Source of the DNA: Plicaturopsis crispa FD-325 SS-3
Lineage: Eukaryota; Basidiomycota; Agaricomycetes; Amylocorticiales; Amylocorticiaceae
DNA length: 64,000 nucleotides
NCBI GenBank assembly: GCA_000827205.1
Contig: KN832558.1
Coordinates: forward strand, 1 to 64,000
Direction of reading: 5' to 3'
Position numbers and translations under genes: made by a program. Shown in pieces: positions 503 to 56,791 of this stretch (its first letter is position 1; each line of letters begins with the position of its first letter). The notes beneath the pieces were generated by a model that was not told the DNA's origin, made no database searches, and worked only from the letters and a program-made list of their open reading frames with translations.

Positions 503-525
503 GTATTTCACAAGATGTATTGTCA

Positions 526-781: not shown

Positions 782-1156
782 CGGTGATGCATTACATAAT
801 AAGCATGCAAATGGCCATATCATTGAATTTATCAAACTCACTGCTGGTGAGTCAATAGGCATTCACATAAGTCAATGTAGGGTCCGTCAGGGAGCCCTAT
901 ATTTGGGCTTTTTAGTATGCATGTGCAAGATATAGGCTAGACGTGTGATCATTGCAAATTTAGCCATGAAATAGAATTTAGTACACTATTTGCAGCATCG
1001 TCAACAGGCATCCACAAATATTGGTGTAGAGTCAACTGGAAAGCTCAGTAGTCATAATGTGTACAATGTGTGCTCTGTATCCGATCAGATCACATCTAAT
1101 ATAAAATATTGGTTAGAACTAATGACAAGACAGTGGGTTTGCCAAAAACTTATTGC
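782..1156. other. Gene-free AT-rich stretch
   Basis: No supportable coding frame. A weak copy of the gggctttt/gggtccgtcag motif (about 870-915) suggests decayed MITE sequence. Confidence 0.5.
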
Positions 1157-2080: not shown

Positions 2081-2118
2081 ATATTGAGGTGTGCACTTGA
2101 CTCTGTTGACCTGCAGCC

Positions 2119-2934: not shown

Positions 2935-2961
2935 AAGATGTAGGGAGTGTGCATTACAAGA

Positions 2962-4175: not shown

Positions 4176-5799
4176 ATATAATTAGATAAACAATCAGTTA
4201 AGGAGAGGCACTGTTCTGGTGGGGTGGGGAGGCTACAAAGTATGAGTAAGGTGTATACAATTAGGGGATAGAGAGGGAGATACCTTTGCATGATTAAAGA
4301 AAGTGTTTGTAAAATGGGGGAAAATGAGAGGTCTGGATGTTGAGTGAATCAGCAATTTTAAAGGAAATTGCGTAAATAAGGTAATTATTGGAGCTTGAGA
4401 ATTCAATAGATGATGGATGAGTGTATAGCGTTGTAGGGCTAAGTTTTAATAGTTTGACTGACGAATGGGTACATGGGGGGAATGTCATGACAGGATCGGT
4501 GCGGATGTCGGTGGTGAGGCGGCTGTCATGACTGACAAATGGGCTATACGGTACATGGGTGGAAGGACATTAGTATGGCGGTTGTCGGGGGTGTGTCGGC
4601 TGTGATGGTTGAGAAGTGGTAATAAGTGGGGATGGTGTTGGCTCTGGGGTTTAGGTGGTTTGTGATAAGAGTGGAATCTTGAGGACAAAGGACCGATGAG
4701 TGAGGGCTGGAGATATGTACATACTAGTCGGCCGCACCCTACCAATGGGCGGCTAAAATGTTTGATATTGAAGGGCCTAAGAAATCTGATAAGTAGAGGG
4801 GGCTGCACCCTCTCAAAGGATTTTTAAGTTTTTGTGAGATCTTAGGGCCGCACCCATGCCATGGGCCTTAGGGCTAACCCCTTTTCTTACAAATTTGGTT
4901 ACACGGGTACTATACTTTGTTAACCGTTTGTTCTTGACTTGACTACAAGGCTACAATTGCTATAGTGATGGGGCCACATCCATTCATAGGACCGCTTCGA
5001 AATGCGGCCACACTGTGGGTGGCTCCATCAATAGGCCCTTGGAACGTTCTAGGTGGCTCCATTGAATGGGCTTTAGTCACTGAATAGTGTGGTGCTCGGG
5101 TCCCTATGGTGTCCTCGGCCTGCAAACACTTCATTCACCTGCACATTTTGGCCCGTCCCGTCGCATCACTCCGCCACGGTCCCTGCACTGTCTGCCCTCG
5201 TATGGGGTCGCCTGGCGCGTTTTTCCACTTTTACCTCTTTTGGTTCTTTTACTTTAGAGGTTTAAAGGTCTCGGCCTTTTCTTTGGCCGGGTCCTTACAG
5301 CCTCAATGAGGCAGGAGAGGCTAAAGGTGATGAAGAAAGGGGCCCAACGGAGCAGGGCTGCTCCGCAGCAGACTCGAGATGGAGAACGAGGAGGCACAAC
5401 ACCTGCTAGACGGCAAGACCACTGACACTACCCCCACCCCATCTCCCATCTGTTTCGTTCACCTCGCCCCCTCCAGAAGGCTTATTGCAGTGTGAACTGC
5501 ACCAGAACGGACTAGACACTTGCTGGATGAAATAACTTAGAGTATCAGACAGCTGGTGTCCAAAGTTAGTCACTATATATTGAGATATAGCTAAACACTA
5601 ACCTAGAGTCCGAAGTAAGTCACTGAAGAGAGTGAGAACTTCGGACTCCGCTTTTGCAGAGTAAAGTACAAACAGAAACAAATAGAGCGGAGCGGAAACC
5701 GGAGCAGAGTGGCTGGCCTGTCCAGTCAAAGCGAGGTAAACAAAGAACAGGAAGACTCAATGATAAGTAGCAAACACAGACTGTAACAAGGCTTCCCCA
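4176..5799. other. Repeat-unit interior without a supportable gene
   Basis: It may hold the 5' exon of the TET/JBP gene (a proline- and histidine-rich minus frame lies at 4485-4808). Short local repeats occur: ggtggctccat twice (about 5017, 5050), and a hairpin around 5598-5650 whose arms contain gagtccgaagt and acttcggactc. Nothing else was recognised. Confidence 0.4.
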
Positions 5800-6432
5800 T
5801 TGTTCACGGGTGAGACGAAGAATCTGTTATCAAAAACATGGACATTGAATGCCGCAAGGCCTGGGACAAGATTACGGTCCCTGAATGCCTCGTGTACACG
5901 TTTTGACGGACGCAACCCTTGGGCCGTGGTCAAGTCCATCACTGACGCCGTCACCGGTACTTCCACCACAAACCCCACGTCTCCCCCCCTATGCACACTT
6001 CAACTTCAACAGACCGCGCTGTCCCCTTACGTCCACCTAGTGGCAAACACCCCACAGGAGATAATCTCAGCATCAGTCGACCAGGGATGCTGGTCTATAT
6101 TGCCATCCCTGGTCTTCTTTGCAATACCATATGCACCGCACCCCTCCTACTACATCCTCACCATTGAGAGCCTGTCTATTGACCATACTCGTAACGACAA
6201 TGCACTCTGTGTCATTGTCGGCGCTATCGCAAAATTGGCGGCGATCGTGTCCTTCATCTCTGCCTGCTACGAGGACACCCCTCGAGAACTGGGACCCGAT
6301 GATTGGGTCCTCAGCATCATCAAATCCGTGTATGTCAGGTGCATCAAAGGGAGGATCAGTGGGGCCCTGCAAATTCTCTGGAACCTTTATATAAAGTCAC
6401 CCGCCTCAAACATCAAGGACCACTGCGCGTAG
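5800..6432 (+). CDS. Unrecognised 210-residue frame
   Basis: A single uninterrupted frame from ATG 5800 to TAG 6430-6432. The middle (residues about 100-165) is hydrophobic and could hold one or two membrane segments. It matches no family I know. Overlapping minus-strand frames (5757-5996, 6073-6372) are also open, so coding strand is not settled. It lies inside the inverted-repeat unit and may be part of its cargo or chance. Confidence 0.2.
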   Translation: MFTGETKNLLSKTWTLNAARPGTRLRSLNASCTRFDGRNPWAVVKSITDAVTGTSTTNPTSPPLCTLQLQQTALSPYVHLVANTPQEIISASVDQGCWSILPSLVFFAIPYAPHPSYYILTIESLSIDHTRNDNALCVIVGAIAKLAAIVSFISACYEDTPRELGPDDWVLSIIKSVYVRCIKGRISGALQILWNLYIKSPASNIKDHCA

Positions 6433-7924
6433 ATCAAGCTCTTCAACAACCTTCCTTCCCTTCAAATTGCCTAAGTTCAGAAGCGGCATGGGGAAATGTG
6501 CTTTGACCCCCCTTTGTACGCTCTTTGCAGAAGTCTCGGCCACGGCAGCCCCCACTGCCCGTTCCCTGCCATTCCCGGCTAGCGCGGCCCCAACCCCTGC
6601 AAGCAATGCAACAGGCCCGACCAAGACCACCAAATCGACGTGCCTAACATAGCCCCGCGTAGAGGCCATGCTCAGCGAGAGGGTTGAGGTGGACATGGAG
6701 GTCGCGGCCACAGAGACAGTGGCGCCCGAGCAGGTCACACCAGAGCTCGAGGTTGGTACTAAAGTTGTTTACCTCGTGTCCCACCCATGTACTTTGTTTA
6801 AACCGAATATCTGCACCACCTCTCACCAGACTATGTTGAGTCTGCTGTTCAATCACAAATTGTAAAGGCCCTGAGGGTTTGTATAATCCTGACACCCCCA
6901 ATCACCTCTGAGCTGTCCTACATTATTATGAGGCTCGCCGAACGCACCACCGACGAACCCGCCAAGACTGACAAGAAACCCTCCATGCTGACGTAAAAGA
7001 GCAGCAAATCATACATAGTGGGCCACTATAAGAGGGACCTAGAGACAAACCCCCTCTTCCCCCAAAACCACCATGTCAAACCAGCATTGCCGCCTCCCTT
7101 CCAGTGACAGCTTAGACCCCTCATCTCAGACACAGTCAGTACTCCCACCTGCGAAGGTAGCACAGCAAATCCCACCTAACCAAACGAAACCAGAAACTCC
7201 CACCTTGCCAAAGCGAGCCTAAATCAGACAAGGCGAGTTTGTGTTCCCTGTTAGAGTTGGTTTGCTCAGGTGCCACAAGGATCAAATAGATACAAACATT
7301 GCCAGCTCATCAGTAGCATACTTGTCTCTTTTCCCCCTCATCTGTGTCAATCCAGTCTCTTTTTGTGTCTGTGTCCGCGCCCCCATCTCCCTTATTCTAA
7401 CATTCCCCGCCGTCTCGGAAGGATATGCAAAGTTGAATGCAGGAGAAGGGAAACGACGACGAGACGAGGATGAGAGACAGGCAGAGTGCGCAGCGCGACG
7501 AGAGCGATGAGGAGATGGTGAACGCGAGGGAGAACGATCTGCAGCGACGCGAGCATGACTTGCTAAAGAGGGCCACTGCTGCGCATGGCAAGAAACGAGT
7601 CCTAGTTTTTAGTGATTCAAGACATTTGAATTAGAATAATCTGTTTTTGTCCTCGCTGCATTTGCAAGCTATTTGCGGTCTATGCTATCTGTGTCTTGTC
7701 TGAATGCGAAATGGGGCAGAGGAACAAGGGTACATGTGGAGGAAATCAAGGGTAAATGCGAAAAAAAGGGAATAAAGTGGTGAAGGAGTCCATGCAGGGG
7801 GAACAAGGCAATAGAGCTAACACGAGGTGATGCACGACCAAGGGGGGAGTTGCGCGACGAAGTCACGTGATGCTCCAAAGCCGCGGACCGGTGCCGAGGG
7901 TTCCATGTGGCCCCGAGTCCAGGT
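6433..7924. other. Interior of the inverted-repeat unit, weak coding evidence only
   Basis: A short plus frame at 7437-7634 is rich in Glu, Arg and Asp and would form a coiled coil (ARENDLQRREHDLLKRATAA). Its end is duplicated in inverted orientation at 447-502, so it may be the 3' end of an element gene whose upstream exons are not recognisable. The rest shows nothing supportable. Confidence 0.25.
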
Positions 7925-8029
7925 GGCGATGCGACAGCTGCAGAAGCGGAGTTGTGGCGCAGGGACACGAGGGGTCAACGTGGGGTGACGTGTGATGGAC
8001 TGGGAGGTCGCGCAATGATATTAGGTCAT

Positions 8030-8500
8030 GCCAGGAAGTTGCGCCGCAGCTGCAGAGGTGGTAGAACAGTCGTAAAGGCCGAAATGGGCAAGAGGGCCCA
8101 AACGCGCAGGTGAACGGAGCGTTTGAAGGCCGAGGATGCTATAGGGACCCGAGCGCAGCTTTGGGAAGCGAACTAGAGGTCGCACAGTGATGTCCCGTAG
8201 TGCGCCTAAGTCGCGCTTCAGCTGCGGAGGTGGCGAAACCGGCCTGAAGGCTAAACGACGCAGGATGGGCCAGAACGCGCAGGTGGACAAGGGGTTTAGA
8301 GGTCGAGGACGCTATAGGGACCCGAGCGCAGCCTCAGGGATTGAACTAGAGGTCGCGCGGGGATGTTCTGCAGTGCGCCCAAGTCGTGCTTCAGCTGCGG
8401 AAGTGGCAAAATGGTCCCGGAGGTTGAACGACGCAAAATGGGCCGAAACGCGTAGGTGAACGAAGTGTTAAGGGTCCGGGATACTCGATGGATCGAAGCA
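8030..8500 (+). repeat. Tandem repeat, about 173-bp period, about 2.7 copies
   Basis: The block atagggacccgagcgcag occurs at 8141 and 8314 (173 bp apart) with a decayed third copy near 8481. The companion block gctgcagaggtgg recurs at about 8049, 8222 and 8395. A more diverged partial copy begins near 7933. The units are GC-rich, unlike the AT-rich flanks, and lie just inside the right arm, so they could be a subterminal repeat array of the element. Confidence 0.75.
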
Positions 8501-8633
8501 CGGTCGAAAAGAGCGTGATAGCGACTTAGGTAGGTCCCAGAAGGAAGTCCCGGGACGTGTGCGCAAGTGGATAAATGGTCGGGTCATGACACACCTTTGA
8601 TGTAAAACACAATATGGCTGGACAGACTTCACT

Positions 8634-8922
8634 GTTACGAGTCCTTAGTTTACTAAGATAACTCGTTTATTTACTAGGACTTTCGCGCGTCAAATGGACT
8701 TGCAACGTTGAACCTTGCAAACCATGGGAAAAAAAATTGTAGTGCTCGAGTCGAACCATAGTAATGTTGTAATGGTCAAGCCAAACCACCCTACATTGCA
8801 ACCGAACCACTATACAAAAAAATCAAACCATAGTACTAAATTCTAATGTTCAAATTGAACCATATAAAAGGTGATTCTCCAACAGGTCGAGCGTTCGAAT
8901 CCCACTGACGGAAAACATTTTT
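8634..8922 (-). repeat. Right inverted arm of the TET/JBP unit
   Basis: The reverse complement aligns with 1157-2080 minus the MITE. It contains gaaccat/gaaccac blocks at about 25-30 bp spacing and ends outward in a tRNA T-arm-like block (GCGTTCGAATCCCAC at about 8889). It shows more differences from the left arm than expected of a recent element. Confidence 0.6.
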
Positions 8923-12296: not shown

Positions 12297-13860
12297 TGTT
12301 GGATTTTGTGTGTGCGTCGCGTCCTCGGAAAGGGCGCGTTCGTGAGTTTCAGATCGGACTTCGGACTTCGGACAAACAGTAGTCAATAGTACGCGCGTCC
12401 ACGTAGCACGGCGTTGCCTTTGTCTTTCTTTTTGCTCTCGTTCAATATACGATCCCGGCCGCATTCTATCGTCCTCGCCGTCACTGGTGCCCCATATCTA
12501 GCCTATTTCTGTCAGGTTATGAGCCCCGCGCTCCTCTGATCTACACGCTGCTTTCCTCGTTGAGTTTCAACACTTTTTCTCTGTTCTTTTGCGCTCAAAA
12601 CTCCGGATTCCCCCTCCCTTTCCTGCACATTCATTCCCATCACCATCCTCCACTTTCCTATCATGTCCCCTACCGCTCTCCAGCTCCTCGCCACCTTTGA
12701 CGTCGCCAACAAGTTCAATGGCTCGAACTGGTCCGCTTTTAAGTGCGAGTTTGTCATGACTTTCGGCGCCAACCCCGCGATGTGGGCCGTCATGCAGGGC
12801 AACACCAGGCGTCCCTCTTCCCCCTCAGAGGGTGATGCTGCCTCCAAGTGGGATGGGCTTGACCGTGATGCCTGCCTGGTGCTTTATAAGACCATGGCTA
12901 GCGCCGCTGTCCAGTCCACCCATTTCAAGGCTAACTGGACGTCTGCGCAGATCTGGAAGAGCCTTACGTCGGAGTACGAGAAGGATGTTCGCTCTGCTCG
13001 CTTCGACCTGAAGAAGCAGTTCCACAATCCCGTCCATGATCCTTCCCAGCCCATCGCCACCTACATCGCCCGTATCGAGGACGCTGCTGACCAGCTTAGC
13101 GTCATCGGCCACACTCCTTCCTCCACCAACATCACCGACTCCATCATCATGCATCTCGACCCGTCCTGGCACGTCATCCACACCATGCTCGTCACTCGCC
13201 CCTCCGATGCCATCCCAGATACGCGACAAGATCATGCGACGTGCTCGTCATCGTGCTCATCACGCCGCCACTGGCTCAGACTACTATGGCTCTGACAGTG
13301 ACGACGGCATTGCTGGTGGTGCCTTCGCCGGTGCTGCATCTCATCTTACGCCGACTCAGATCCTCAACCGTGGTCTGGCTCTCATCCCCGACTCAGAGAA
13401 CGCCGACGACATCTTCGCTGGTACTGCCCTCCAAGGCATGGATGGCTCAGGCTCGGATGACACGGATGTTGACAGCGATTCGGACGACAGTCTTCCAGCC
13501 CATGTCTCACGGGCTCCGATTCGGATTCAGGCGTAGGAGGGTTGTTCAGGACAGTGGGAGGTCTCACGAGTTGTTGGGTCAGTGGGAGGGGTCAGCCGGT
13601 TTTGGTTTTGGTCTTTCCTTCGGACGTCTTCGCAAGTGGGAGTGTTGGATTTGGTGTGTGCGTCGCGTCCTCGGAAAGGGCGCGTTCGCGAGTTTCGGAT
13701 TGGACATCGGACTTCGAACAAACAGTAGTCAATAGTACGCGCGTCCACGTAGCACGGCGTCCCTCTTGTCTTTCTTTTTGCTCTCGTTCAATACACGATC
13801 CCGGCCGCATTTTATCGTCTTAGCCGTCACTGGTGCCTCTCTATTAGCCTATTTCTGTCA
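12297..13860 (+). mobile_element. Second non-autonomous copia-type LTR element, gag only
   Basis: LTRs of 218 bp (12297-12514 and 13643-13860) start TGTTGGATTT and end TTCTGTCA; they differ at roughly 15 positions, so this element is older than its left neighbour. Directly after the 5' LTR is GGTTATGAGCCC, complementary to the anticodon stem-loop of initiator tRNA-Met, the half-tRNA priming site used by many copia elements. The interior has a gag-like gene and no pol. No target duplication is seen. Confidence 0.8.
12663..13536 (+). CDS. Copia gag-like region (element part), degraded
   Basis: The region begins at ATG 12663 with a gag-type N-terminus (FNGSNWSAFKCEF) and continues as gag-like coding with an acidic Asp/Ser-rich tail. 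It is broken and contains no zinc knuckle or enzyme domain that I can see. Confidence 0.6.
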
Positions 13861-17910: not shown

Positions 17911-19780
17911 TATAGTCCGAGCTCCTCGTTAATGGAAAATCCAAGGCGACGTTGCGTTTTCGTAGCCTTCCGTCCACCAGTTTGCCTATCGAGCAGACGA
18001 TATGTCAGGATCTGAGCTGGAGCATATGCAATCGATGAACGCGTACCTCTGTTCCTGGCATACAAAACTCTCCGGGGCGCCTTCCCAGTCCTCTAACACA
18101 TACTTGCCAGCTGTCGTGCCCTCAACATCGTTATCCCGCTCGGGACCGAACAAATCCAAGGCGAGCTGTGTGTGACTTACACCCGCATACGTCGTGACAC
18201 ACCGTGGGTTGACTAGGATGCGTGCGGGGGAGTACACAGAGTTCGGAATCGCCAAGTACTCGTTGATATTGTCGAGGGGCAGCGGCACATCGGAGTCCGG
18301 CATCGCGTCGTAGTCGGAGCCTGCATTCGCATCTGGGTCGGCGCTATCCTCTTGGCGCCGCACGTCCTCCTCCTTCGCTTCCCGCTTCCTCCGACGACCC
18401 GGCGCCGCGTTTGCAGCCTCGTCCACCTCCTTCACGCCGCGCTTAGCCGCACCCACCCAGAGATCCCGGCAGAACCACGCCTGGCTGCTGTCCAAGCACG
18501 CCGCATCCGGGCCGCGGGCGGGAGGGGGGTCACTCGTGGAGAGGTTGTGGTAGTCTGTACCTGCGCGGTACTTGATGCCCGCGTAGTACGACTGCGCGGG
18601 GTCGACGACGTGCGTGCCTGATTCGCAGCAAAAGACCTGGAACGGGAGATGCTGGACGTATCGGGCCGCACCAGCGCTGTCGCGTGGAGGGACAGCATCA
18701 GGTTGAGCGGAGGACTTGGACTGCCTGAACTGGTCTCCCTCGATGTCTCGCGTCCGCCAACTGTATTGCCGTCAGTAAAAGCTACTAACAAACGGTGGAA
18801 ATTGTTTCGTACCGGTCAGAGAATATGAAAAAGCCGTTATGTTCCGCCCAGTCCATCCCACATACCATTGCTGCCTCGTTTGCCACGCTCATCTTAATCG
18901 TCTCGAGAATATCGTTGGGACAAGTGAACCCTTTGAGCCATATAACACGGTGGAAGGTGACCCCACGTTTCTGGTAAAGCTCGTGCAACGGCTCGAGCGC
19001 AAGGTTTTTCATATATGCCTCCTCCAAAGGGTAATACGCGTCTACGGGATCGACTGTCATCCCTGGGACCCTGCGTATCCGGAATGGAACGCCGAGGAGA
19101 ATGAGCACAGCCTCACACAGGTCCGTGAGCGTTTCTGTGGAGTCCGTGGAGTCGTAATCGAGCATGGAGACAAACAGGCTGCTCGCACCGAGCCGTTTGA
19201 CCATCTGGACGATGACTGCGAGCTGGTCGACGAGGAAGTGGTCGGCAGAATGGAGCACGATACCGATGTAGTAGAGGTGGTCGTTCAGGGCAAGTTCGTC
19301 GTATGATGCTTCGTATTTATTCTGCCCAAAAGGACGGGTGAGTGTTGGGCAAGCGGCTGCTGACCAGCCGTTCAGAGAGAGCAACTGCTCTATGGAACTA
19401 TGCACGCTCTGTGCGTCCATCTGAGCTGTCTCAGAGCCAGTGATACTATCGTGATATCAGTAAACGCTAGGAATCACACATTCCGACACTTACTATGGTC
19501 GTTGAAACCGTTCCCAGTAGTCCGTGACACCATTCGAGATGTAATCGTCGAGCAAGTCCGGACGCTCGTCTCTGCCCACTCGCGCCTGGAGGAACTTGTA
19601 TTTTTGGACATTCAAAGTCTTGTCAGCGCGTGTGACGCGCTCCAGGACATTGTGTTCGCGTATTTCATGGTCGGGCACAGACGAGGATGCAGGGAAGAAC
19701 AAGAGTCTGACGAAAGCGCCGAAACAAAACAGCAGGACCAGGCGGACCAGAGTACGTCGTCGTATGAACACGGCTGCCAT
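17911..19780 (-). CDS. Cap59/CMT1-family mannosyltransferase (type II membrane protein)
   Basis: This fungal family includes the Cryptococcus alpha-1,3-mannosyltransferase Cmt1 and capsule protein Cap59, which act in the secretory pathway on surface glycans. The start at 19780 is followed by a signal anchor (about residues 10-30, LVRLVLLFCFGAFVRLLFF). Later conserved blocks are LFVSMLDYDSTDSTE, MDWAEHNGFFIFSDR, FQVFCCESGTHVVDP, SQAWFCRDLW and VNPRCVTTYAGVSHTQLALD. Introns are short; one near 18770-18820 (donor gtacga) is clear, and a small exon of about 20 bp near 19410-19430 is likely but unproven. The final intron (donor gtacgc near 18040) extends the protein to a stop at about 17911; without splicing it ends at 17986. 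The exact sugar acceptor cannot be told from sequence. Confidence 0.85.
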
Positions 19781-21745: not shown

Positions 21746-24324
21746 CTACGAACTGCCGTTGACTCCATTTACCTGACTGAGCGCCGCGTCCGCTTTGCGC
21801 AGATCGCCCTCGCTGAGGCTGTTAAATGCACCTCCTCCCGGTGTACTCGCACCCGACATCACAGAGCCCGCGCGGGAGCGAACCTTCATAACCAACGGGC
21901 TGCAAAGGGAAAACCGTTATTCAGCTGGCATACAGCGGTGCAGAAGGGGTATACGCACAATGGATAGCCGTCTTCTTCATCCTCCGTGGAGCCGGGCCAG
22001 CTTTGGCCCCTATAATCACTCGTAGAGAGGCCTTGCATCTGCAGTATCAACCGTCAGTAAGGCGTGTGCGCGAGACACTCCAGGTGTGCGTACCTCCTCG
22101 GTCAACGTGCCGAGATCGCCTGGCGTGGCTTGTCCCCTCAGCCTGGGACTAGCGGGCATAGATCCCGGCGGCATCTTGGAAACGCCCGCGCCGAAGTAAT
22201 CGAGATCCTCCTCTTCACCCTCGCCATCCCCGTGATAGAATGCATCCGGGTATGCGCGTCGCAGCGCGAGCTGTCTCGACTTGGAGTATTCGATGCCGAG
22301 GTTCTTCCAGTCCAACAGTGGCGAAAGGCGCTCAACACGGTTGCGCTGGTTGATGCGCTGGCGCCGGGTCTTGTTGCAGAACGACAGCATCTGGGAGGCG
22401 AGCTGGTTGACCGAATCTTCGACGGACTGCATCCGTCGGTCGATGATGTAGCAGCCTTCCTCTTCAGGCCGCTCGATAAGGTCTTGCATGAAACACCCAA
22501 AGCCAGACAGATTCGTCGTGATCGACGGGATGCCCATCTACAGATCATTAGCGTAGATCTAGAGTGCAGATATAAGGGTACCCACCACTGTGCATTCTGC
22601 CGGAGTGTAGCCCCACGGCTCATAGTAACTGGGGAATACGCCCAAATGGCATCCTCTGACAAACTCCTCATAGTCCAGTCCCAAGATAGGATTGTTCGAG
22701 TTGAGGAAGTCCGGGTGGAAAATGACCTTGACGCGGTCGCTCGATGCATTGAAAAGCTTAACACGGCGGATTTGGTTCAGGACCGGGTCGCCCGCGTCAT
22801 CAGCCATATTATGTGTTGTGATCGGCGGGAGCGAATTCCGTTTCAACGCGAATATACGCCGTTTTAAGAGAACCTTGTCTTCCTCTGAGAGCAGCTCGTC
22901 AGGTGTGGGCACTGCCTTTTGGTCTCTGTATTATAGTGCTCGTGAGCCCAGAATGTGTTGTGGGGAAATATGGGTGGAGCGTACCCGTGGAAGCGAGCGG
23001 CATGGTTGAATAATCTTGAACCGACACGGTTCTGGATTTCTGTCACTGTATCGCGTAGCTGCTTAGTGACAGCCTGCCCCTTCAACGCCTCGATTGTATA
23101 GGAGTGCGTGGCTGCTGGCATGATGATGAAAGCTACGACGGTGACTGTCGAGCCTGCCTTCTGGAGGCGATGATTGAGACCTGTTGGATGTCAATTGTGT
23201 GTACGAAAACATTGGCAGAGAACTTACGCGCGAGAGATTCGATGAACATGTCTACACCCTTGTTTCGATATTCGTAACGACCTGCCGTGAACATCTTCCG
23301 TGAAATACGGTCAGCCGTGATTGAGTTTAAAAACAGATTGTCCTCACATATAGCGTGTTGTCGAGGTCAAAGTCAAAGTGGCCGTAGAAGTGACCCCTTA
23401 CGAACTCGTTGATCTTCTCCTTGGCGGTGGAATGCAAATTCTGGAACTCGTGCATTGCCTGGAACTTGACGACGTTGAGGCCGTTCGGAACTACTCCGTC
23501 CGGCTTCCGCTTCAGCAAGTGCTCAGCCTCGTACGCGGTGATATGGGATACGGTCGTGAAGACGTCAGCGCAATGAGTAGCTGATCGTTCAATGCAGTAG
23601 CGGTGATATATGCCGCGCTTTCCCGCTTCATGGTCTACATCGAAGTATTGGAGGTTGTTGTAGAAGTCGACGCTGCCCGCACAGAGATAGCGGCCGAGAA
23701 GTGTCGCGTGCGTCGTGAACACTGTGGTAACATCGATGTGACGTTTCCGGCAGAGGGGGATCGCAAGGCCGGCCTGCCACTCGTGGAAGTGCGCGACGAC
23801 AGCGGTATGCAGCTGCCTAGAGACATACTGCAGCCTCTGTTAGATCCGCAAAGCCATTCACACGATGAACTGCAGCTTACATCTCCGAGGAACCACGCCA
23901 CAAGATATCCAAAAACGATCGTCTCGTTTGTTTCGTGATCATTAGGAGGCGACGGAATGCCAGCCAAGTTCCACAGATCTCCTTTCCACTCGTCCAGCCG
24001 GTGGTACTGACTTCCTGTGTCAAACAGAAGAACGTGTGGATTTCCTTCGATAAGCCAGCGGCCATAGAGCGCCTTTACGCCCTGCGCTCGCATCGACTCC
24101 AGCGTTGCGGCAAGGTGAGGGTCGGTTGGCTCCTGCGCCTCGACCTCCATGGGGGCTGTCTTGTAGCTGAGTGGGCCGATAAGACAATAACGGTCGCCAT
24201 ACTCGGAGACGGTGACGGGTACTTTCGTTTTGATGACGGTGTAGATTCCGCCTACTTTATTGGCGACCTCCCAAGCGCATTCGAAGAGCAGATGGTTATG
24301 AACATCGCGCTTTTCGTCGGACAT
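21746..24324 (-). CDS. GSY1: Glycogen synthase (GT3 family)
   Basis: It extends glycogen with glucose from UDP-glucose in the cytoplasm. The start [11 protein letters not shown] leads directly into the GT3 N-terminus ([21 protein letters not shown], around residues 15-35). Further blocks are [61 protein letters not shown] and [13 protein letters not shown], including the acidic EPWGYTPAE active-site segment. The tail includes an Arg-rich regulatory stretch ([20 protein letters not shown]), then RGQSWPGS, and ends ...NGVNGSS. About nine exons with short introns; exon edges not all fixed. An in-frame ATG lies 12 bp upstream (24336). Length and order fit the family. Confidence 0.93.
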
Positions 24325-24968
24325 TGCGACGAGCAACCTGGTAAGTTGTCAGTCTTAGATGGGGGTAGGAAAGAGAAAGACGAGCTCGAGGAAAAGGGGA
24401 AACCTGGAGAAAAATATGAACCAGTGTCGTTCAGCAAAGCAAACTCCAGATCCTGCTCGGCCCAAGCTGGCCAGGGGCACAAAATGACTTCATGCCCACG
24501 TGAGACTGGGACAGGTGGCGTGGGAATATATTTACCCCAGACTTTACCCCACCTGACCGTACCACGATGCTCGCAGGTTCTTGCGATAATCAGCCATGTC
24601 AAAACGGAGAAACATACAAACTTTCAAGAGCGCGGTCACTGCCTCAGTCCGATTCCTCAACGAATCTACGTTCAATGTGAGAGATCACAGTCGTGTCCCG
24701 GACGCAGTTCTGAGTTTCTGAGGTGTGCCTTTACTTCTCTGTTAACGAACGCTAAGTATCTTGACCTGAATTGTCGTGCAATGCCTAGATGCCCTCGACC
24801 GTTTAGAAAGACATAAATCAAGCCGTATTTTGAGTCCTGCCATGTGCATTGTGCAATAATTCTCTGCGAGCGCCGTGCCTACTCGTACGCTGTTCGACCA
24901 AGAAATGGACATTCGATCCAACCGACAAGGATGTAACTCTTAAATCTTTAATACATGGAAATACCAGC
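24325..24968. other. Glycogen synthase upstream region
   Basis: 644 bp between the GSY1 start and the 3' end of the first Rid gene. No convincing coding frame; presumably the GSY1 promoter and 5' leader. Confidence 0.5.
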
Positions 24969-36825: not shown

Positions 36826-37258
36826 ATGACTTGGTGCCGATGGTGCCAAACGGAAAAGCGAGGGCAAGGCTTCAAGAAGCACGTCACCGCATGCCGCCTT
36901 CGATTTTGGGCTAGGAACTCAAATAAACATTCCACAAAGTCATCCGGAGTTGACACCCAGCCGCCGCCCAAGAAACGGAGGAAGATTCAGGAGGACTCGG
37001 AGGAGCACAGCAAAGAGGTATGGATGCCTTGTTTATGTTTCGAGGGTTTCGCTAAGCAGGACTTTGAATGCAGGCCGATGGCTTGGGGGAGGACTACACG
37101 GCCGGCTTTGCCTCGGAAATTGAACCGGTTACAAGCGATGGTGGATCAGATGGTGAGAATTGAGCGATCGAACCATCTGGCAATCTAAGCGCATTGACCG
37201 CCTTATGATCTATCTTCAGCGACACCAGATAACGGGGCCCCGTACATCAAGATCATAC

Positions 37259-37359
37259 TAGTCTCGGATCCAGCCGTTTTCGGAGTTTCAAAACCCAAGA
37301 CACAGAACCTCCTACAACGTCTGGTGCACTGTGTAAGGGACACCCCCGCGCAGGTCACA
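37259..37359 (+). repeat. Left 101-bp terminal inverted repeat
   Basis: Identical in reverse complement to 43660-43760. Identity stops sharply at 37360. It lies about 310 bp upstream of the DUF6589 start. Confidence 0.95.
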
Positions 37360-37671
37360 TCAGGGGTATCACACTTCCAAATCAGTGCATTTTGTTACAG
37401 TGACGCTCTTTAACGGGTTATATACCCCTGACTCGTAGAGTGCTACGAAACACTCGCTCTTCGCATGTTAGTGACGGTGTCGACCATAGGCTTGTCCTGC
37501 CTTGTAATGTACACGAAAACATGTTTGGTATAAGTGCTACTCAAGTTGATGAGGTAGTAAATTTTTATCATCACCAATGTGTGAACTTTATTTGCGACTC
37601 CGAGTCTGACTGGAAAATTGATGACCGTGTATAAGCGACGTGCAAAGACAACTGCTATAGCTCTCTCCGAA

Positions 37672-40509
37672 ATGGCTGAACCACGCGCAAACGAAAATAC
37701 TGCTGCAACTAGCCAACCAGACTGGGCAAACCTTTTTATTCACGATGAGTCCGAGGATGATCCAATGGCCCGAGAAGACCCCGATACCGACAGTGAATGC
37801 AGCAGTGACGAGGACGACGATTCGGACTATGACCCGGAGGCTATGGATGTAGACGAGGACAGTGATGAAGGTGCAGAGGAGGTGAGAGGTTCCGTGCCAT
37901 ACCACGAGCACACGGAGGGGCGAAGAGAGCGGTTGCGGAACAACAAACGGCACGACGAAGCTGCCCGAAATCCTGTCGAAACGATGTCAACGAAGGTTGC
38001 AAAAGTTCTGTACACAATGGACAAACTAGGCCTCGACTTACCAATTTTTCTGGATGCTCTGAGCTGGGGTGAAGACGAGAGCTATGGCACCGGAACACCG
38101 TCCGAAGCACGCTCAATTCAGTACGCGCGCTCATCGCTACTCCATAGCAAAGAGCTTCCCGGTATCCTGGAGCGTTGGTGGAAGCCGCCGCGCTCGAAAA
38201 AGTCGAAGAGGTCGAGGCCAAAAGGAGCAAAGAGCAGTATGGAGACGTTTGCGGTGAAGTGCGTGGACAACATCCGCGAGCGGGAGATGAAAGGTGTCGC
38301 AGCGCTGCTGCGGTCTCCGTCGGGAGAAGACTTGAAGGAGGAGACCCTGACGAGCATCAACTTCATTGAGATGGGGGAGGAGATTCGGGCCCGCGCACCG
38401 ACTGTGTGGATGTTGTTTCGAGGCGCCGCGTATAGCGCTAAGCAAGAGAAAAGAAACAAGATGAAAAATCCGGATAAGGTGTGTTGAACGGCAAATGCAT
38501 ACCTTGTAGTGCTGAACCAGCTGCGCTAGGTTGTTCTCATGGCCATCGCGATGCTGGCGTACACGCGAAATCATCGTCACGGTCGTATGCAAAAGATGTT
38601 CGCGGTGTACCTAAAGTTTCGCGGACTTTCAGCAAAGGCTTTCGACACGCTCCACGCGCTGGGAATTACGATGAGTCACAAATGGACGAGCAACGCCGTC
38701 GAAACCATGTCTAAAAACGCAATGACCGAGGTCGTCAATATGATACAAAAATACCCCTTCTTTGTCTCGCACGACAACGTCAACATACCATTTCGTGTTT
38801 ACTCCCAACGACTCGACAACAAGGGGGAGTTTGGGAATGGCACAGCGGCAACTGTATACGTCAAAAGGAATGCTAAGCCGCTGCCCACGGACGAGAATCG
38901 AAACTTACAGGAGACACGCGCGGAAGGGCTGAAGAAGCCGCTGGGGGCCCTCGAAATCATGAAGATGGACGTTGAATCAGCCGGTCGAATACAAGACCGC
39001 ATGTGCGACGAGGTCCTTCAATTCATCACAGGATCGCCTGAGTTCGACTTGAAAACGTACGCGCACAGGGACAGCCTCCTTCTTCAGCGGCTTCCTGCCA
39101 TCCGCCCACTTCCGTGTGGTCCCGAGAACATTACCCTGCAATACATGCTCGGAACGGTTGATATTCCTGAGGCAAGCTACGACGATAATGACCGCTTGCT
39201 TATCGAGTGGCTCCGGCAGCTGAGAAAGAACGCGCCGAACGAGAAGAGGAGGTTAGCACTCGAGCAACTTATTGTATGGGTGGGGGATCAACTCACCGTC
39301 GATCGGCTCCGGGGGCTTTTCAAGTCTCGCGCCGAGGACTTGAACTCGTACGATCGTATGGACTGGATAGTGCCGGTGTTTGGGTGGTTGCATCTCGAAA
39401 TGGCCGTCGAGAATTCCTTGCACAAGCAATATCTTGGTACATCCTCGGGCAGGGGCCTGGCCCACGATTTCGCGGTTCTAGAGCGGAAGGGACTATCGTC
39501 AGTTCTCACAAAGGGCCCATTTCATCACAATCTCCAGGAGGCTCTTTACCATATCGCGGAAGCCCACATACGCATCGATGTCTGCATGGTTGCCGGCGTC
39601 TCCGACCTGAAGGAGCTCCGTGAGAAGTCGCCCGAGGAGCTGGTAGAATTGGCCAGGACTGTTGTTCAAGAGCACGCGTCTACGGCTGCCATCGACAAGA
39701 TCGACCACGGTACCTCGGTGGATAAACGGGACGAAATCAAGAGGCAAACTGTCATGTTTAACCGTGATGTTCTCCAATACATTGTCCTAGATCACGCTAT
39801 CAAGCACGGCGACGTGGGAGTGATGGAGGACTCCTTACCACAGCTTTTGTTCCGCTTCCAAGGGAGCGGCCAGTCCAACTACGCCACGGAAATTCTGGAG
39901 TTGCTTCAGAACTTGCGGAGAGAATGGCCCGATGAGCTGCGGTACAAAGATCACTATGTTAGATTTTGCAACTGACCGACGAAGTTATGCATACCTCCTT
40001 AGAGAGCACGTCATCACAAATTGCTGGCTTGTCAACTTTGGGGGGCGGCGGGACGGGTTTGTGCCGGTGGACATGGCGCAGGAGCACAACATAAAGGACA
40101 TCAAAGTTAGTCACTCGTAACTATCCTACAACGGAGATACTCATCTGTATTGTTATAGGTAACATACCACTCGGAAGGTCCGAACATCGACTGGGCCTAT
40201 CTCAAGAAGATGCACCCTGCCGTGCGCATAATTCGAGCAGTCTCACAGCACATGGAGCAGGACTTCGGCACCTTGAACCGGGGAAACAAACACGGCACAC
40301 CTAAGAAAGACCGAGACGTTAGGAAACTCCAAGACTCATATCTGGCTTCGCGCACTCACGAGACCTATCCAAACGGGCGCAAGGCTAAATCGGAGAATCG
40401 CGCAGTCGACGTTGTCAACCTAGGCTGTATTAGTTTGCCGAACAAGATGAAGGAGTGGGTCAGCGGCCGAAGCTTCAGACGATCAATGCAGCAGAAGTGG
40501 AACGAATGA
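37672..40509 (+). CDS. DUF6589 protein, candidate transposase
   Basis: Exons 37672-38478, 38530-39941, 39985-40105 and 40159-40509 encode 896 residues; an in-frame ATG at 37618 would add 18. The N-terminus is acidic (ESEDDPMARED, then an Asp/Glu/Ser run). The DUF6589 core is residues about 230-850, with FLMAIAML-type start region (VVLMAIAMLAYTRN), IVWVGDQLTVDRLRGLF (about 515-530), DWIVPVFGWLHLEMA (about 545-560), GPFHHNLQEALYHIAEAHI, SNYATEILELLQNL (about 715-730) and INCWLV-like NCWLVNFGGR with VPVDMAQEHNIKD near the end. DUF6589 is a fungal domain of unknown function, common in Agaricomycetes. An RNase H-type DDE fold is my inference from the GDQLT/WLHLEM/ATEILEL pattern and the element context. 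Confidence 0.85.
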
Positions 40510-40531
40510 TTATTTGATGCTGGGTCTTGTC

Positions 40532-43500
40532 CTAAGTATTCGTATCTGTGTAGTTATGAGGAGGCCCGGGCATCCCGAAAGCGAGCGCAGCGTCGTTGTT
40601 ACCAGACGTTGGGGGGCCGAAAATCGGCGACGGCGTCGAATGTAAATGAGGAGTTGATACTGGATGTTCGCCGGGCATTGCGTTCAGTGCGTATGAGAAT
40701 CTGGAAGGGAGTAATGGCGAATACAAATGCGGATACGCATGCGGTCCATATCCGTATATATGGTGTCCCGGAGAGCTGGGAAGCGCCGGGGTGCGAGGCG
40801 CTTCTGGTAAGAAACGAGGTGGCGGCATAGGCTGCTGGTAGAACATCGGGTGCTGACTGGATGAGGGATGGGTGGTAGAGGAAATAGGCGATGCGAACGC
40901 GCTGCCCGAAGAGGACGGGGACGAGAAAAGCTGTCCGAGTGGAGTGGGAAGGTACCCGGGATGGACTGGCGCACGAAGCTGGACCGAGTCTGCGTACGCA
41001 GCGCTCGGAGAAGTCCTGGCGTATGTGCTCGCGGTGGCCTGTGTTAAAGGACTCGAGTCAATTAATGTCATGAACAAAATAGAATACTAGTCGCGTACCT
41101 GCTGAGCAACGGGGGTCGAAGGTCCCATATTGAATGAAAACGAACCAACAAGCGTGGATGGCGCCGGCGCTCGAGCAGCGTCGCGCATCGCGGCGCGCTC
41201 TTCCCGCTTCCTTGCACTCGCCACCAGCCGCTGCTCCCGTTCCTTTTCTTTCCTATCGGCCGTCGCTAGCTTTTTCTTCGCGCTCTTCTCAGCCTTTGCT
41301 TGGTCCAGCGCTGCTTTCCGCGCAACGTCAACCCGCCGAATGACTTCAAGAACTTCCGCGCCGTGCTGCTCGGCGAATATCCATGGCGTTTTGAGCGCCA
41401 GCAGATCGTCGACGGTTTTCAGGGACGTCTTGGTCGCTAGCGCCGTGAGGATGGGGTCCGGGAGGATTGCGGATGTCGCAAACGAGCTAGGTGAGTACTC
41501 ATCACGTTTTTTGCGGTACCTCCAAGTCTCGAGGCAGCCGCGGACATCTCTGAGGTGGTCGCCCCTGCGATTCGAAGCGCGCTTTGGCTGCGCTGCCATC
41601 GGTCGTTTACCGTTGGCGTTGGGTGTTGTCGATGGCGCCGAACGCCTTCCATCTGCTCGCGGCCTGGACATACCACGCTCGCCTTCCCCGTCTGATTCGT
41701 TTGCAGAATCGGCCTCTTCGTCATCCCTATCACGGTCTGTGTCGTCGTTCAAGTCGTCGTCCTCGTCACGATCATCTTCCCCCGGATCCGTTTCCTCTGC
41801 CGCCGCCTGCCCTTCATGATCGATCCCTTCAGACGTCGGCGTGCACTTGTCGCAGCAGGCTCCGGTAGGCGCTATAATATTTGATTAATATCTTTTCTGT
41901 ACGCTGATCGGACACTAGCTCACGCTTTCGTGGACGAGGACTATCAAAGTACTCGTCCGACACGTCCCGGCGACAGCCAGGCGCCTGTATCCACCTGCGA
42001 AACGGCTCCTCGACCTTACGCGCCCATACCTTGCCATCGTCCTCAATCGAGTTTTTAGGTCCTTGAATCTCGGTTTGAGTTGGAGGTGCGTCATCGGTCG
42101 ACCGCGCGATCTCGTCCTCATCGCCAACGCCTTCGTCCTCGGCATTCACGATGTACGTTACGTCGTCGCCAGCCTCGCCTTTCTTCCGCTTCCTCCGATG
42201 AAACATAGACTCTTCGACTAATAGATAAACCGAAGCGTGAACGCCAGGCGAGCGCCCCGCACGACCGGCGCGTTGAGTCCAGATCGATAATGATTTGCAG
42301 AGCCCAAACTGGATGACACGTTTTATGTTGGGAATATCGGCGCCCTGTCGTATCAGTGAGTACGGAAGATTGGACAAGCATGAGATAGGTTGAACTCACC
42401 ATGCCTGCTGCCTCTGTTGCCACCAGTATCTTAACCACACCTTTCGAAAACCGCTCCATCACATCCCCTTTCGCGAATTCCGTCCGCCGTGAGCTCAGGC
42501 AGTCGATAGCGTCGTGGAAATCATTCGGAAACCAACTTCGAATTTCTCGCACCAAGTGCTGCGTGGACGTGACACTGTCGATGTATACGACGGTCTGTTC
42601 GAGGTCCTCGGGGGAGATAACACCAGTTGTAATGAGTCGTTTGAGTTCCGTATAGTCATTCGTGCTTTTGATGCGGATGACCGTCGGGGTGAGGTTTGGG
42701 CGATCGTTCCCAAGATTGAGAAAAAAGGACTTTTGGAGGTCAATGTTAAGCTTCATGCAAGTCTCAGTGAGAGCGGCTGAGGGCAAGGTCGCAGACGTAG
42801 CAAGAAAAGGTATGTGCGTGGGTACAAAAGCACGAAACTTCTCAACAAGAGAGTACTTCGGACGGAATTCCCCGCCCCACTGTGAAATACAGTGGCATTC
42901 GTCGATTATGAACGCGGTAATCCTTTCCGCGTATGCTTTCGATCCGAGTAGCTCCCGTATTGCAGGATTCTCCAAGCCCATCTCTGGTGACAGCAAGATG
43001 GCACGCCACTTGAGGTCCTTCAATTCCTGCCGTCGATGATGATGTGAGAGACCATGAGGCTCGGGTCTGATGAAACGACTGCTGTATTATGTACATACCT
43101 GATGCAGTCGCTCATTCCACGTTTGTTTGTTCACAGGTACTGCTGCAATCCCCATTTTCTTGAACCGCGCTGCCTGTCAACCACATTAAGGTTGAATGCG
43201 GAAAGTAGAGGCTCCTTGGGCACACACCATGTCTTTCTCAAGGATGTTGAGAGGGGAAATGATGACGACAATCTTGGTCTTGTCGTGTAGGAGCGGCATC
43301 ATGAATGGCATTGTTTTGCCCGCACCGGTCCCTGCGATCACCACCGAGTCGAGTCCGAGAAGAAGCGCTTCAGTGACATCAACTTGCCATTCATGAGGCG
43401 CAGATCCAAAGCGGTCCGTGAAAGCTTTGCGGAGCGCTTCCCGAGTTGTTGCTGATGTATATCCCCGAGCCTGAGTAGCTGTCTCGCGTGCAGCTTGAAG

Positions 43501-43551
43501 ATTATCATGAGAGCGTTTGAGCCGGACATCAAGGGCAGCTTGTTGAGCCAT
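40532..43551 (-). CDS. RecQ-like SF2 DNA helicase of the transposon
   Basis: The start at 43551 (MAQQAALDVRLKRS) is 108 bp from the right TIR. Helicase motifs in order: I AGTGAGKT, Ia ISPLNILEKD, II DECHCISQWG, III SATL, V ATEAAGMGADIPNIKRVIQFG-type block, VI QRAGRAGR. Behind the core comes a likely zinc-binding TGACCDKC reached through an intron with donor gtgagc (near 41930), a helical Lys/Glu-rich region and a Pro/Ser/His-rich tail ending at 40532. At least seven exons. Motif II DECH and QRAGRAGR place it with RecQ rather than Pif1 helicases. It should unwind DNA 3'-5' in the nucleus. Related helicases are frequent in Agaricomycete genomes and near telomeres. The 3' ends of the two element genes are 22 bp apart. 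Confidence 0.87.
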
Positions 43552-43659
43552 GGACAGATATGTATTCACACAGAAAACAGTGAAAATATTCAACGCGGCG
43601 GTGCGACGCGCTATCACGTGGAGTAAATTAATGCCATTTTGGGGACGTGATGTTACGAT

Positions 43660-43760
43660 TGTGACCTGCGCGGGGGTGTCCCTTACACAGTGCACCAGAC
43701 GTTGTAGGAGGTTCTGTGTCTTGGGTTTTGAAACTCCGAAAACGGCTGGATCCGAGACTA
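43660..43760 (-). repeat. Right 101-bp terminal inverted repeat
   Basis: Reverse complement of 37259-37359; followed directly by the second copy of the 9-bp target duplication at 43761-43769. Confidence 0.95.
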
Positions 43761-46700
43761 AGATCATACCACATCCACATAGCGGCATCACCGAGCCTAC
43801 GATCATCCCCCTTGATGGTACCACAGCTCTCACTTCAGCGGTGCACAGTCCTGAGGTCGCCGGATTGGTGATTCCTCGGGCTTCACTCAAGCCTTGGGCA
43901 CCATTCCGAAACCTACAGGACTTCGAGTTCACGGAGTTCGCTCTACACACTGGGTTGTCGAATAAATATGTCGATGTCCTTCTGAAGAGTAGATGGTCCA
44001 GCGGCGAGTCATTACTCACGTTTCAGAATCACGCGGACATGAAACGCTCGCTACAGGCTGCGCGTCAATACGTGGTCGAGGTCAGTTGCGCCTCCTTTCT
44101 CAGAAAGTGTGATATATTATTGACGCTTTGAAACTCTAGTTCCAGCCGGGGCATGTTGAGGCGACATACCAAAACAAGTGCTACAAATTCGACTTTGAAT
44201 ACCGGGATCCATGGGATTGGATTCTAAGTATAGTAACGGACGAGACCCTTGCGACCGACAGCATGTGGTATTCAGTCCGTAAGTATTATTGTGAGGGCGG
44301 TGTGGAGGATGAGCTCTTCGACGAGCCGAATACAGGAGAAGCTTGGCGGGCAGTCGATGTGAGTCCTGTTTTTGTCGCACAACATGTAATCAATTGACCA
44401 GTGACCATTGATCAGGATACCCTTCCCAGTAATGACTCGTACCCGCACTGCTACCTCCCGCTCCATCTCTGGCTCGACAAAGCTGCTATCACCAAACGTG
44501 TGAAGAAGCACCCTATCGTTCTGCGAGCAGCCTGGCTGCCTCGACACATTCGCAATGCTTCTGGAAACGGGGGCGGGGTATTGATCGGGTATATGCCAAT
44601 TGTATGTAGTGGTTTTATCCTCGTATGACTCGGGGATACACTCAGCTTATGAATCATCGCCGTGGACTCCGCAGGTTGTCGACCCCGCAAACCCTTCCGA
44701 TCGGAACGCCGCTGAAACAGTTGAGTATGCCAACTTCAAACGGGAGGTATATCAGAATGTGCTTTCTGTGGTCTTCAAGCGCTTGCGACGACGCTCCCAT
44801 CATGGTGAAACGGTACGCTGTGGTGACAAGATCCCTCGGATTTTGCATCCTGGCATTCTTATCGAGTCACTTGATGGAGAAGAGGCCGCGGCATTTTGCT
44901 GTGTTCGAGCCGCCACCGCTAATTTTCCGTGCCCAAAATGTCTTGTCCACAAATTGAAGCTTCACGAACTGACCACGACATTTGATTTACGCACAACGGA
45001 GACGATGCGCGCAGTCTTTCAACGCGCAGCTGCAGCAGGATCAAAGACGAAAACAGAGAACATTCTCAAAGATCACGGTCTAAATAACGTGGAGGTAGGT
45101 TGCTATCACACCAGGCTAGTGGCGCTATTCACTGACATACTGGCGTAGCACTTCCTCTGGGGGTTTCGATTTTCGGATCCATACGCTGCCTATTGCTACG
45201 ACACGCTACATTCGGACGACCTCGGGAAGTGGGGCAAGCACATTTGGCCTCTGATATTGGACGTGCTCGAGAAACAGGGCAACGGTGCTCTAGGTCGTTT
45301 AGCAGAAAAGTACGTCGCGCATCACTGAATAACTTGTTTGAACTTCAAAACTCATGATGCTGTCTGATCACCGCACTAATTCGCACCGAAATTAGCTTCA
45401 GAAGCATGCCGCGCTGGTCGAGGCTCAAAAACTTCCAAAATGTCACCACTATCGAGTACGCGGACGGACAGGCGTATCTCGACATATTGAAGGTTTTTGA
45501 GTGTGCATACCTGTTAGCATAAAGCACGGTCTGACAGCTCTGAGCAGGGCATACTGCCCTGTCTTGTGCAGATACTTCCGAGGAACTCGCCTCTCATTCA
45601 CTGCATCCGTGCTTATGCACGCTACCGCATGATGGTTGGACTGCACTGCATGTCGGAAAGCCGTCTCAAACGGCTGGAAAAGTATCTTGCGGCTTACGAG
45701 TATTGGTCCACGGTGTGCCACGCTCCTCGACTGCTATTTCCGCAGCCAACCTACTCATACTGCTAACAGAAAGTGGCTCATCTCTACGAGAAGAACTTCG
45801 ACTTCTTCAAGCAGCATGCATCTTCGCATGGTCCGCGCGACATACGCGCCCGGGGTACCACCGACAACTTTTCGACGCGACCAGGTGAGGGAGTTCAACA
45901 AGAGGTCAGGGAGGCATACGAGGAGACGAACGGAAAGAACGCGGAGTCCCAGGTGCGTGAATAATTGGTATATCAACTCGTTCTATACGTTTACCAGCTT
46001 ATTTTAGATGACTCGCCGGGACGCAAATCACGAGGCAGTCGCACGCATCCGAATGACAATAGACGACGACGAGCGAGCGAGAATGGAGGCCAACGCGGCC
46101 GAGCCGGACGACGAGGACGTGACCGAGATCGCAGCATCTACAGGCAATTCCCCGAAGCACTGGACCCTTGGATCGCCAGAACGTCGTAACGCAGATTCGA
46201 GACTACTGGAGGATGCGAAATTAGAGGCCGGCACTGAGGGATTCCGCTCTTTTGACTCGAAACTGAGGGAGTTCATTACTACTCATATCCCAGACGACGC
46301 GCCTCAAAGCGCTAGTCTCATGCCGGTATGTCCTACTCGTTCTCGGCGGTATACGACACCACGAATACTAATGATACTACGTACCCTGCTTGACTCAGAT
46401 TCAAGAATACAAGTGTGTATACATACACTATCAATCACTCGAGGATTGGACCGCAAGCCGCGACATTCTGCGGTGCAGCGACAGCTTCCACGGCAAACGG
46501 CGTCGCGACTGTGTTATCATCAACATGGACTCCCCTGGCTTGACATGCGCACGCATTCTGGGCATATACCGTTGCACGCTGCCGTCTGGAAAGCTTCAAG
46601 ACATCGCGCTCGTGCGCATGTTTCAATCGAGCAGCTGGAAGCCAAATACGTTCTGGGACGGCTGTCAAGTTTGCGACGAAGCAAAGGAACCTATGTTCGT

Positions 46701-54591: not shown

Positions 54592-56346
54592 ATGTCACTG
54601 CAGCATTTTGGCAAGGGGGCCCTACGCGTCGCCAAAAACTACACAAAGGGATACTCGGATACCCAGGCAAAGGTTCGCGATGCAACCTCGAACGACCCTT
54701 GGGGCCCTTCTGGCACGCAGATGAACGAGATCGCGCAGATGACATATAACCAGTGCGTCTCATTTATATATCTTTGCGCTCAAAATCTGACTTGGACGGT
54801 GCTTGTGCCAAAGGAACGACTTTGTAGAGATCATGGAAATGCTGGACAAGAGGCTGAACGACAAGGGCAAGAATTGGCGCCACGTCTTCAAAGTGCGTGC
54901 GTTTCCCATAGCACACTGCGTAACTATGTCATCGACTGACTAGACTTGTGCTTCGTAACCCCATCGACCACAGTCCTTAACAGTCCTCGACTATTGCCTT
55001 CACGCCGGCTCCGAGAACGTGGTCATCTACTTTCGAGACAACATTTACATCATCAAGACACTGAAGGAATTCCAGTTTGTGGATGAGTACGGGAAGGACC
55101 AGGGCGCGAATGTTCGTCAAAAGGCCAAGGACATCACAAATCTTCTTCAGGACGAATCGCGTCTCCGTGAGCAGCGGCGCTCGCGTGCGCACATGCGAGA
55201 TCGCATGGTCCGCGGTGGCCCGGGTGGGGAAGAGGAGGAGGATCTTGGCGAAGACGAGAACGCTCTCCGGAGAAGCAGGAGAAAGCCGTCGGGTGCCAAG
55301 GATGAGGACGAGCTTAAGCGCGCTATTGAGGAAAGCAAACGGAGTCTCGCGCTCGAGCAGGCGAAGAAGGGCGCCATGACGGCCGAGGAGCGAGACCTTG
55401 CCCAAGCGATACGACTGAGTGAAGAAGAAGAGGCGAAACGGGCGAAGGCCCTTGAGGACGCCAATGCAAACTCCTTGTTTGACGAACAAAACCAGTACGT
55501 GCGCGTTTCCTCAAGCTACAGTATCCCATCCATCTCATACAATTCCAACAGAGTCTCGCCACAGCAACCCACTAATCCATTCCCGTTCCTCGACCCAACA
55601 CCATATGCTACTGGTTTACAAGTGCAGCCCCAGTTCACCTCGTTCAACCCTTACCAGCAGCAAGCGCAGCAGGAGGCTATGCAGCAGGAATACCTCCGCC
55701 AGCAGCAGGAGTGGATGCGACAGCAGCAAGAGCAACAAGCTTTGCAGGCATTGCAGCAGCAGCAGCAGCAACAGCAGGAGGAATGGATGCGGCAGCAGCA
55801 GATGATGCAGATGATGCAGCAACAGCAACAGCCAATAATGGCCCAGCCTACCGGGTTCGGGTCGAACAATCCTTTTGCCCCCGCCAGCTCGCCGCCCCCA
55901 CCTATGCCATCCTTCAATTCGTCACCCTCGACGAGTTCGGGACCGTCGTTTAATCTGCAAGGGACATACGAATCGTCACCGGCTCCTCCGTCGTTCTCGA
56001 CGTCGTCAACATCCTCGCCTGCCCCGTCGAGTAACCAGGGCTCGCTGAATGGTCCGCCTCGGAAGACACGGGCGGACGAGGAGCATGCTCATCTCGCAAA
56101 TCTATTCGCAAACCGCGACGATGGCCAGGATACGTTTGGAAACATCGGGCAAATGCGGTACGTCTTGGCATCGGTAATAATGACTGCGTTATGGTGGTTG
56201 CTGAGCAAAAACGCTGCAAATATAGGTACGGCCACACGGAGGCCGGTCGGATCGTGGCACAGAAAACGGGCCATACCCATAACCCGTTCGCACAACAGCA
56301 GCAGCAGCAGCAGCAGAGCAGCGAACAGCCCTTCTTCTCTATCTAG
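54592..56346 (+). CDS. ENT1: Epsin (ENTH-domain endocytic adaptor)
   Basis: Epsins bind PtdIns(4,5)P2 and ubiquitinated cargo at clathrin-coated pits. Start ATG 54592, MSLQHFGKGALRVAKNYTKG; ENTH domain over the first three exons (YSDTQAKVRDATSNDPWGPS; EIMEMLDKRLNDKGKNWRHVFK; SLTVLDYCLHAGSENVV), about residues 15-150. Two ubiquitin-interacting motifs follow (DELKRAIEESKRS, DLAQAIRLSEEEE), then Gln-rich stretches (CAG repeats at 55650-55835), NPF motifs for EH-domain partners (TNPFPF, NNPFAP, HNPFAQ) and a C-terminal eight-Gln run with PFFSI at the end. The last intron has donor gtacgt at about 56159. A 57-bp in-frame segment (55497-55553, gtacgt...caacag) is probably an intron. Confidence 0.92.
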
Positions 56347-56791
56347 CCACTTAGGTGTCCTGTTACCCTCGTTTGTTTTCATTGATATTCCCGAATGCTT
56401 TTATTTTTGCATGGATGTGTTGTAACAATCTTTCTCTTCCACGATTGCGGCAGTGGACGGCAGTCATTGTGCTTATCGAAGTCGATTTGTTGGAACCGCG
56501 GTAATATGGGCCTCGTTCTCCGGAAGATTTGAATACGGAAAAGCAAAGATAGATTTCTGAGCATGCAAGCAGCCGTGTAAATGTAGGGTGTATATGAAGA
56601 TAAAATATGAGTAGAGATATGCGGCGTCATCCAAAACTATATGGGCACACTTCATGAAGGACAGGAAAGAAGAAAAAGCGTCATAAAAGAGAAGGGCTCG
56701 GAGTGAACGAAGGAAAACTGGAAGTGAGAGGCAAGCTTTTAGTACAGGGACGAATAAGAGAACAAGAAAGCGAACATAGCAGCTGCTCAAA

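Follow-up and report, generated by a model that had tools for sequence, protein, structure and literature searches.

A full-length fungal transposon, very probably of the AcademH kind, with a DUF6589 protein as its likely transposase and a RecQ-like helicase as partner

The 6502-bp segment at positions 37259-43760 of the window, by which we mean the whole 64,000-nucleotide stretch of Plicaturopsis crispa contig KN832558.1 that was analysed, is a full-length, recently inserted DNA transposon, and it is probably autonomous. It carries two genes, one for a protein of the DUF6589 family (PF20231) and one for a RecQ-like helicase. Judged by this gene content and by the length of its target site duplication, the element is in all likelihood a transposon of the AcademH kind, in which the DUF6589 protein would be the DDE transposase and the helicase an accessory factor. 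On the same evidence it is probably a new AcademH family, AcademH itself being known to us by description. The point that remains new is the role of DUF6589, which is likely that of the transposase.

The boundaries of the element are set by its terminal inverted repeats (TIRs) together with the target site duplication, to which the reconstructed empty site adds consistent support. The left TIR (37259-37359, plus strand), which begins TAGTCTCGG, and the right TIR (43660-43760, minus strand) match base for base over 101 bp, with mismatches from position 102 onward, and the terminal bases of the element are TAG. Outside the TIRs lies a 9-bp direct repeat, AGATCATAC, at 37250-37258 on the left and at 43761-43769 on the right. 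The base A precedes AGATCATAC on either side, so that a 10-bp duplication, AAGATCATAC, with an element one base shorter, is also possible. Among the 122 outermost exact inverted-repeat pairs of at least 12 bp in the 64-kb window, the 101-bp pair was the only one with the same flanks over at least 8 bp, and the second-longest exact pair in the window measures 29 bp. Exact pairs of 29, 25 and 23 bp occur in the first 9 kb (1413-2056, 466-7591 and 2059-8657, respectively), and their flanks of 6-12 bp are unmatched. An earlier reading, made from the sequence only, had described 101-bp identical inverted ends, a 9-bp duplication on both sides and two genes with unbroken spliced frames, and had taken these for a whole, recent DNA transposon. 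These observations are borne out by the paired TIRs, by a duplication that may extend to 10 bp and by frames that are unbroken in gene models with eight introns chosen by eye as GT-AG; the recency of the insertion follows from the identity of the TIRs and the unbroken genes, as judged from this one copy.

An empty site was reconstructed by deleting the element together with one copy of the duplication and joining the flanks. In this sequence no stop interrupts the frame of the right-hand open reading frame (ORF) for 132 codons over the joined flanks, counted from a putative 3' splice site, and 13 of these codons derive from the left flank. One of the other two frames is open for 46 codons across the junction, and the third stops after 3. 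The right-hand frame runs open into the TIR even with the element present (ORF 43547-44131). The joined flanks are consistent with insertion into an exon, and to that extent the sequence-only reading stands; its stronger claim, that the empty site proves both boundaries, does not, because a second frame is open as well and the right-hand one continues into the TIR in any case.

Directly downstream of the insertion lie three ORFs spanning 44140-45145 that match Plavaka (PF18759), one of them above the Pfam cut-off: ORF 44585-45145 matches with E 7.5e-14, ORF 44398-44625 reaches E 6.7e-6 (26.0 bits, cut-off 26.3), and ORF 44140-44397 is below the cut-off at E 0.0049. In Pfam searches with E values up to 0.01, the junction peptide and the upstream stretch 36830-37017 had no hit. 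The element would thus have inserted into, or next to, a Plavaka transposase gene that was there before it. Elsewhere in the window, two adjacent copia-type gag regions (PF14223; 11224-12075, E 2.4e-42, and 12564-13292, E 3.4e-15) possibly belong to neighbouring or nested LTR elements. Host-type genes are present for glycogen synthase (23635-24345, minus strand) and an ENTH domain protein (54959-56422, plus strand), and a CAP59 mannosyltransferase-like stretch (17986-18768, minus strand) falls just below the Pfam cut-off. Other remnants of DUF6589 or of the helicase were not found in the rest of the window, where the best tblastn E values were 2.9 and 0.086.

The two genes of the element are convergent and fill it, with their stop codons tail to tail and 22 bp between them. 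In the splice models of both, introns were picked by eye as GT-AG to hold the frame, with no transcript support, and each gene reads as an unbroken frame once the eight introns (51-72 bp) are removed. Introns this short, together with DUF6589 and Plavaka, suggest a fungal and likely agaricomycete genome. The DUF6589 gene, at 37672-40509 on the plus strand (exons 37672-38478, 38530-39941, 40003-40105 and 40159-40509), encodes a putative transposase of 890 aa. Residues 404-819 of this protein match positions 3-410 of the 410-position PF20231 profile (E 5.9e-126), and no other family is above the Pfam cut-off. The DUF6589 protein has no sequence relative in the PDB at E up to 10 and no PADLOC match, and an AlphaFold prediction of exon 2 alone (470 aa, single sequence) has a mean pLDDT of 36.9, too low for a fold to be read from it. 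Weak matches to YL1 (E 0.045) and Herpes_TAF50 (E 0.0045) also came up in the Pfam searches; they lie below the cut-off and were put down to composition. Scans of non-fungal collections, which catch close relatives only, gave one pattern match to the DUF6589 protein among viruses and 15 among prokaryote genomes, and no relative was confirmed in these or in the plasmid collection; the same holds for 13 pattern matches of the helicase in the viral collection.

The candidate catalytic residues were probed by making single changes in two stretches of the DUF6589 protein and reading the shift in the PF20231 score. Sites were chosen by hand and not exhaustively, giving 19 changed copies for residues 509-591 (9 + 10) and nine for residues 681-802, 28 in total. 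The unchanged stretches score 88.7 and 165.2 bits, respectively. Relative to these values, the four largest losses among the 28 changes were those of E767A (8.4 bits), H557A (8.2), D763A (6.9) and D522A (6.6). Within residues 509-591 the next losses were G521A (4.7 bits), D522E and T525A (4.4 each), and W555A and Q523A (3.8 each); changes to three other Asp residues shifted the score by +0.5, -1.9 and -2.0 bits, three Glu changes by +3.1, -0.8 and -1.3 bits, and a change to another His by -1.8 bits. Within residues 681-802 the third loss was that of D697A (4.2 bits), and the remaining six changes lay between +0.2 and -3.1 bits.

Three residues are proposed for the active site. D522 in VGDQLT (39286-39288, plus strand), the residue at which change to A cost 6.6 bits and change to E 4.4, is the candidate second catalytic Asp, and E767 in PVDMAQEHN (40082-40084, plus strand) is the candidate last catalytic Glu. 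H557 in FGWLH (39391-39393, plus strand) is a conserved His between the two, and D763, four residues ahead of E767, is also conserved. D351 (38773-38775, plus strand), which lies outside the Pfam match, may be the first catalytic Asp. Conserved D, H and D/E at these places are what one would expect in the latter portion of a DDE enzyme, conservation in itself not being proof of catalysis. With H557 taken as the signature His, residues 554-557 read GWLH and not C/DxxH, and placing C or D at 554 lowered the score by 3.0 bits in each case.

The second gene, at 40532-43551 on the minus strand (exons 43551-43228, 43173-43099, 43026-42400, 42344-41924, 41871-41099 and 41038-40532), encodes an SF2 helicase of 908 aa. 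It matches DEAD (PF00270, E 1.7e-19) and Helicase_C (PF00271, E 6.4e-15), which together with ResIII are the only domains to reach the Pfam cut-off. Among NCBIfam models recQ_fam fits it best, but the score of 158.8 bits stays below the cut-off of 219.8, and 'RecQ-like' is therefore the fitting term; the list of PDB relatives is headed by WRN and RecQ helicases. The long C-terminal half (41099-41871, minus strand) is rich in charged residues and contains the motif CCDKC at residue 488; Pfam models did not match it, even with E values up to 1.

AcademH is reportedly the helicase-encoding lineage of Academ distinguished by Kojima in 2020 (Mob DNA 11:15), a work known to us through the papers that cite it. 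The present element has a duplication of 9 bp (10 possible) in its one insertion, and a helicase recognised by PF00270 and PF00271 for which recQ_fam is the best NCBIfam model, below its cut-off. By comparison, the portion of PMC10045372 that was available gives duplications of 9 or 10 bp for AcademH and 3 or 4 bp for AcademX, apparently tied to the helicase and the nuclease, respectively, and that of PMC10799480 records AcademH, in low copy number, from Basidiomycota, Ascomycota and Mucoromycota. The likeness, drawn by description only, is to a helicase-encoding DNA transposon with a 9 or 10 bp duplication and low copy number in Basidiomycota. For fungal Academ copies, the available part of a 2019 paper (PMC6416283) reports recognisable protein domains such as PF00270 and recQ_fam in 1,568 of 1,938, and notes that domain-bearing copies are thus often annotated as host genes; the element shares these helicase domain names, a likeness of description and not of compared sequence. 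Terms beginning with DUF do not occur in the text of that paper. In a mushroom genome, putative non-autonomous Academ elements, along with Mutator-like ones, are described as widespread in the accessible section of PMC8290104. What could be consulted of the literature on Mycosphaerella, Stagonospora, rust fungi and Pleurotus Helitrons, and likewise on TET/JBP transposons, plant-pathogen transposon bursts, M. oreades transposon activity and Phlebopus, held nothing that decides the identity of the element.

These reports bear on what the sequence-only reading had made of the element. It had held that the element type was undescribed, and this is overturned by helicase-bearing AcademH elements with 9-10 bp duplications that were already known (PMC10045372 and PMC10799480, as excerpted); nor do the helicases newly gain a transposon identity, recQ_fam having been reported in fungal Academ in 2019 (PMC6416283, likewise in part). 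Its division of labour, with DUF6589 as transposase and an assisting helicase, survives in that DUF6589 is the best candidate and has a RecQ-like partner, and loses the novelty of the type. The placement in AcademH rests on the fit of gene content and duplication length, and on the poor fit of KolobokH and of Mutator-like elements; the assignment of DUF6589 as the transposase was reached by elimination.

Long TIRs and duplications of about 9 bp are classic for Mutator-like elements (MULEs). The element might thus be a MULE with captured genes, moved by a MULE transposase encoded elsewhere, and the duplications of 4-10 bp given for MuDR/IS256 in the available text of PMC10045372 agree with this. 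We regard such an origin as quite improbable, since searches of both proteins with E values up to 1 turned up neither a MULE domain nor any other named transposase domain, the C/DxxH signature is not present, and the element is filled by two genes with unbroken frames whose stops are 22 bp apart. It is most improbable that the element is KolobokH, the form of Kolobok that encodes a RecQ helicase. KolobokH resembles it in combining a RecQ helicase with a DDE transposase and in being known from fungi only, and a rhodophyte Kolobok has its RecQ gene on the complementary strand, as here, so that orientation is no argument against Kolobok (PMC9587614, in the part available). However, Kolobok elements have a 4-bp TTAA duplication, 5'-RR..YY-3' ends and a C/DxxH signature between the second D and the last E, whereas the present element has the 9-bp AGATCATAC, a TAG end and GWLH; the duplication by itself already speaks against KolobokH.

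A further reading is that the element belongs to a separate, undescribed superfamily, whose DUF6589 transposase is unrelated to Academ and whose RecQ-like helicase was gained independently, as in KolobokH. RecQ partners do occur in more than one superfamily, being found in KolobokH and in one rhodophyte Kolobok (PMC9587614, as excerpted). In addition, Pfam still lists PF20231 as of unknown function, and the string DUF6589 was not found in the literature searched, though the protein may go by another name among Repbase users. We nevertheless consider this reading unlikely, because the duplication length and gene content agree with AcademH as described in the accessible part of PMC10045372, and because recQ_fam helicases are reported for fungal Academ in that of PMC6416283.

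For an AcademH element of this composition, the DUF6589 protein, as DDE transposase with candidate residues D351, D522 and E767 and conserved companions H557 and D763, would bind the 101-bp TIRs, cut the element free and join it to target DNA at positions staggered by 9 (or 10) bp. The RecQ-like helicase would be accessory, and may act on DNA ends or gaps in excision, repair or replication-coupled spread.

Helicases of similar make-up are described in other fungal settings. The available portion of PMC7473861 reports subtelomeric RecQ-like helicases in Agaricus bisporus and other fungi, which have the helicase core without the other RecQ domains, as here, and that of PMC5576322 a Colletotrichum subtelomeric repeat with RecQ-type, HTH and DDE motifs. 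The comparison is by description only: the subtelomeric helicases are at chromosome ends, whereas ours is within a TIR-bounded element. We think it rather likely that the whole DUF6589 family (PF20231) consists of DDE transposases at the core of Academ-type elements, and that fungal genes annotated as DUF6589, along with many neighbouring genes for RecQ-like helicases, belong to transposons and not to the host.

The element adds no new kind of mobile element. Through its one well-bounded and seemingly intact copy, a Pfam family without a name becomes connected with a transposon lineage that is already known, and its ends, gene models and candidate catalytic residues provide an annotation template for fungal genomes, where such genes can pass as host genes.
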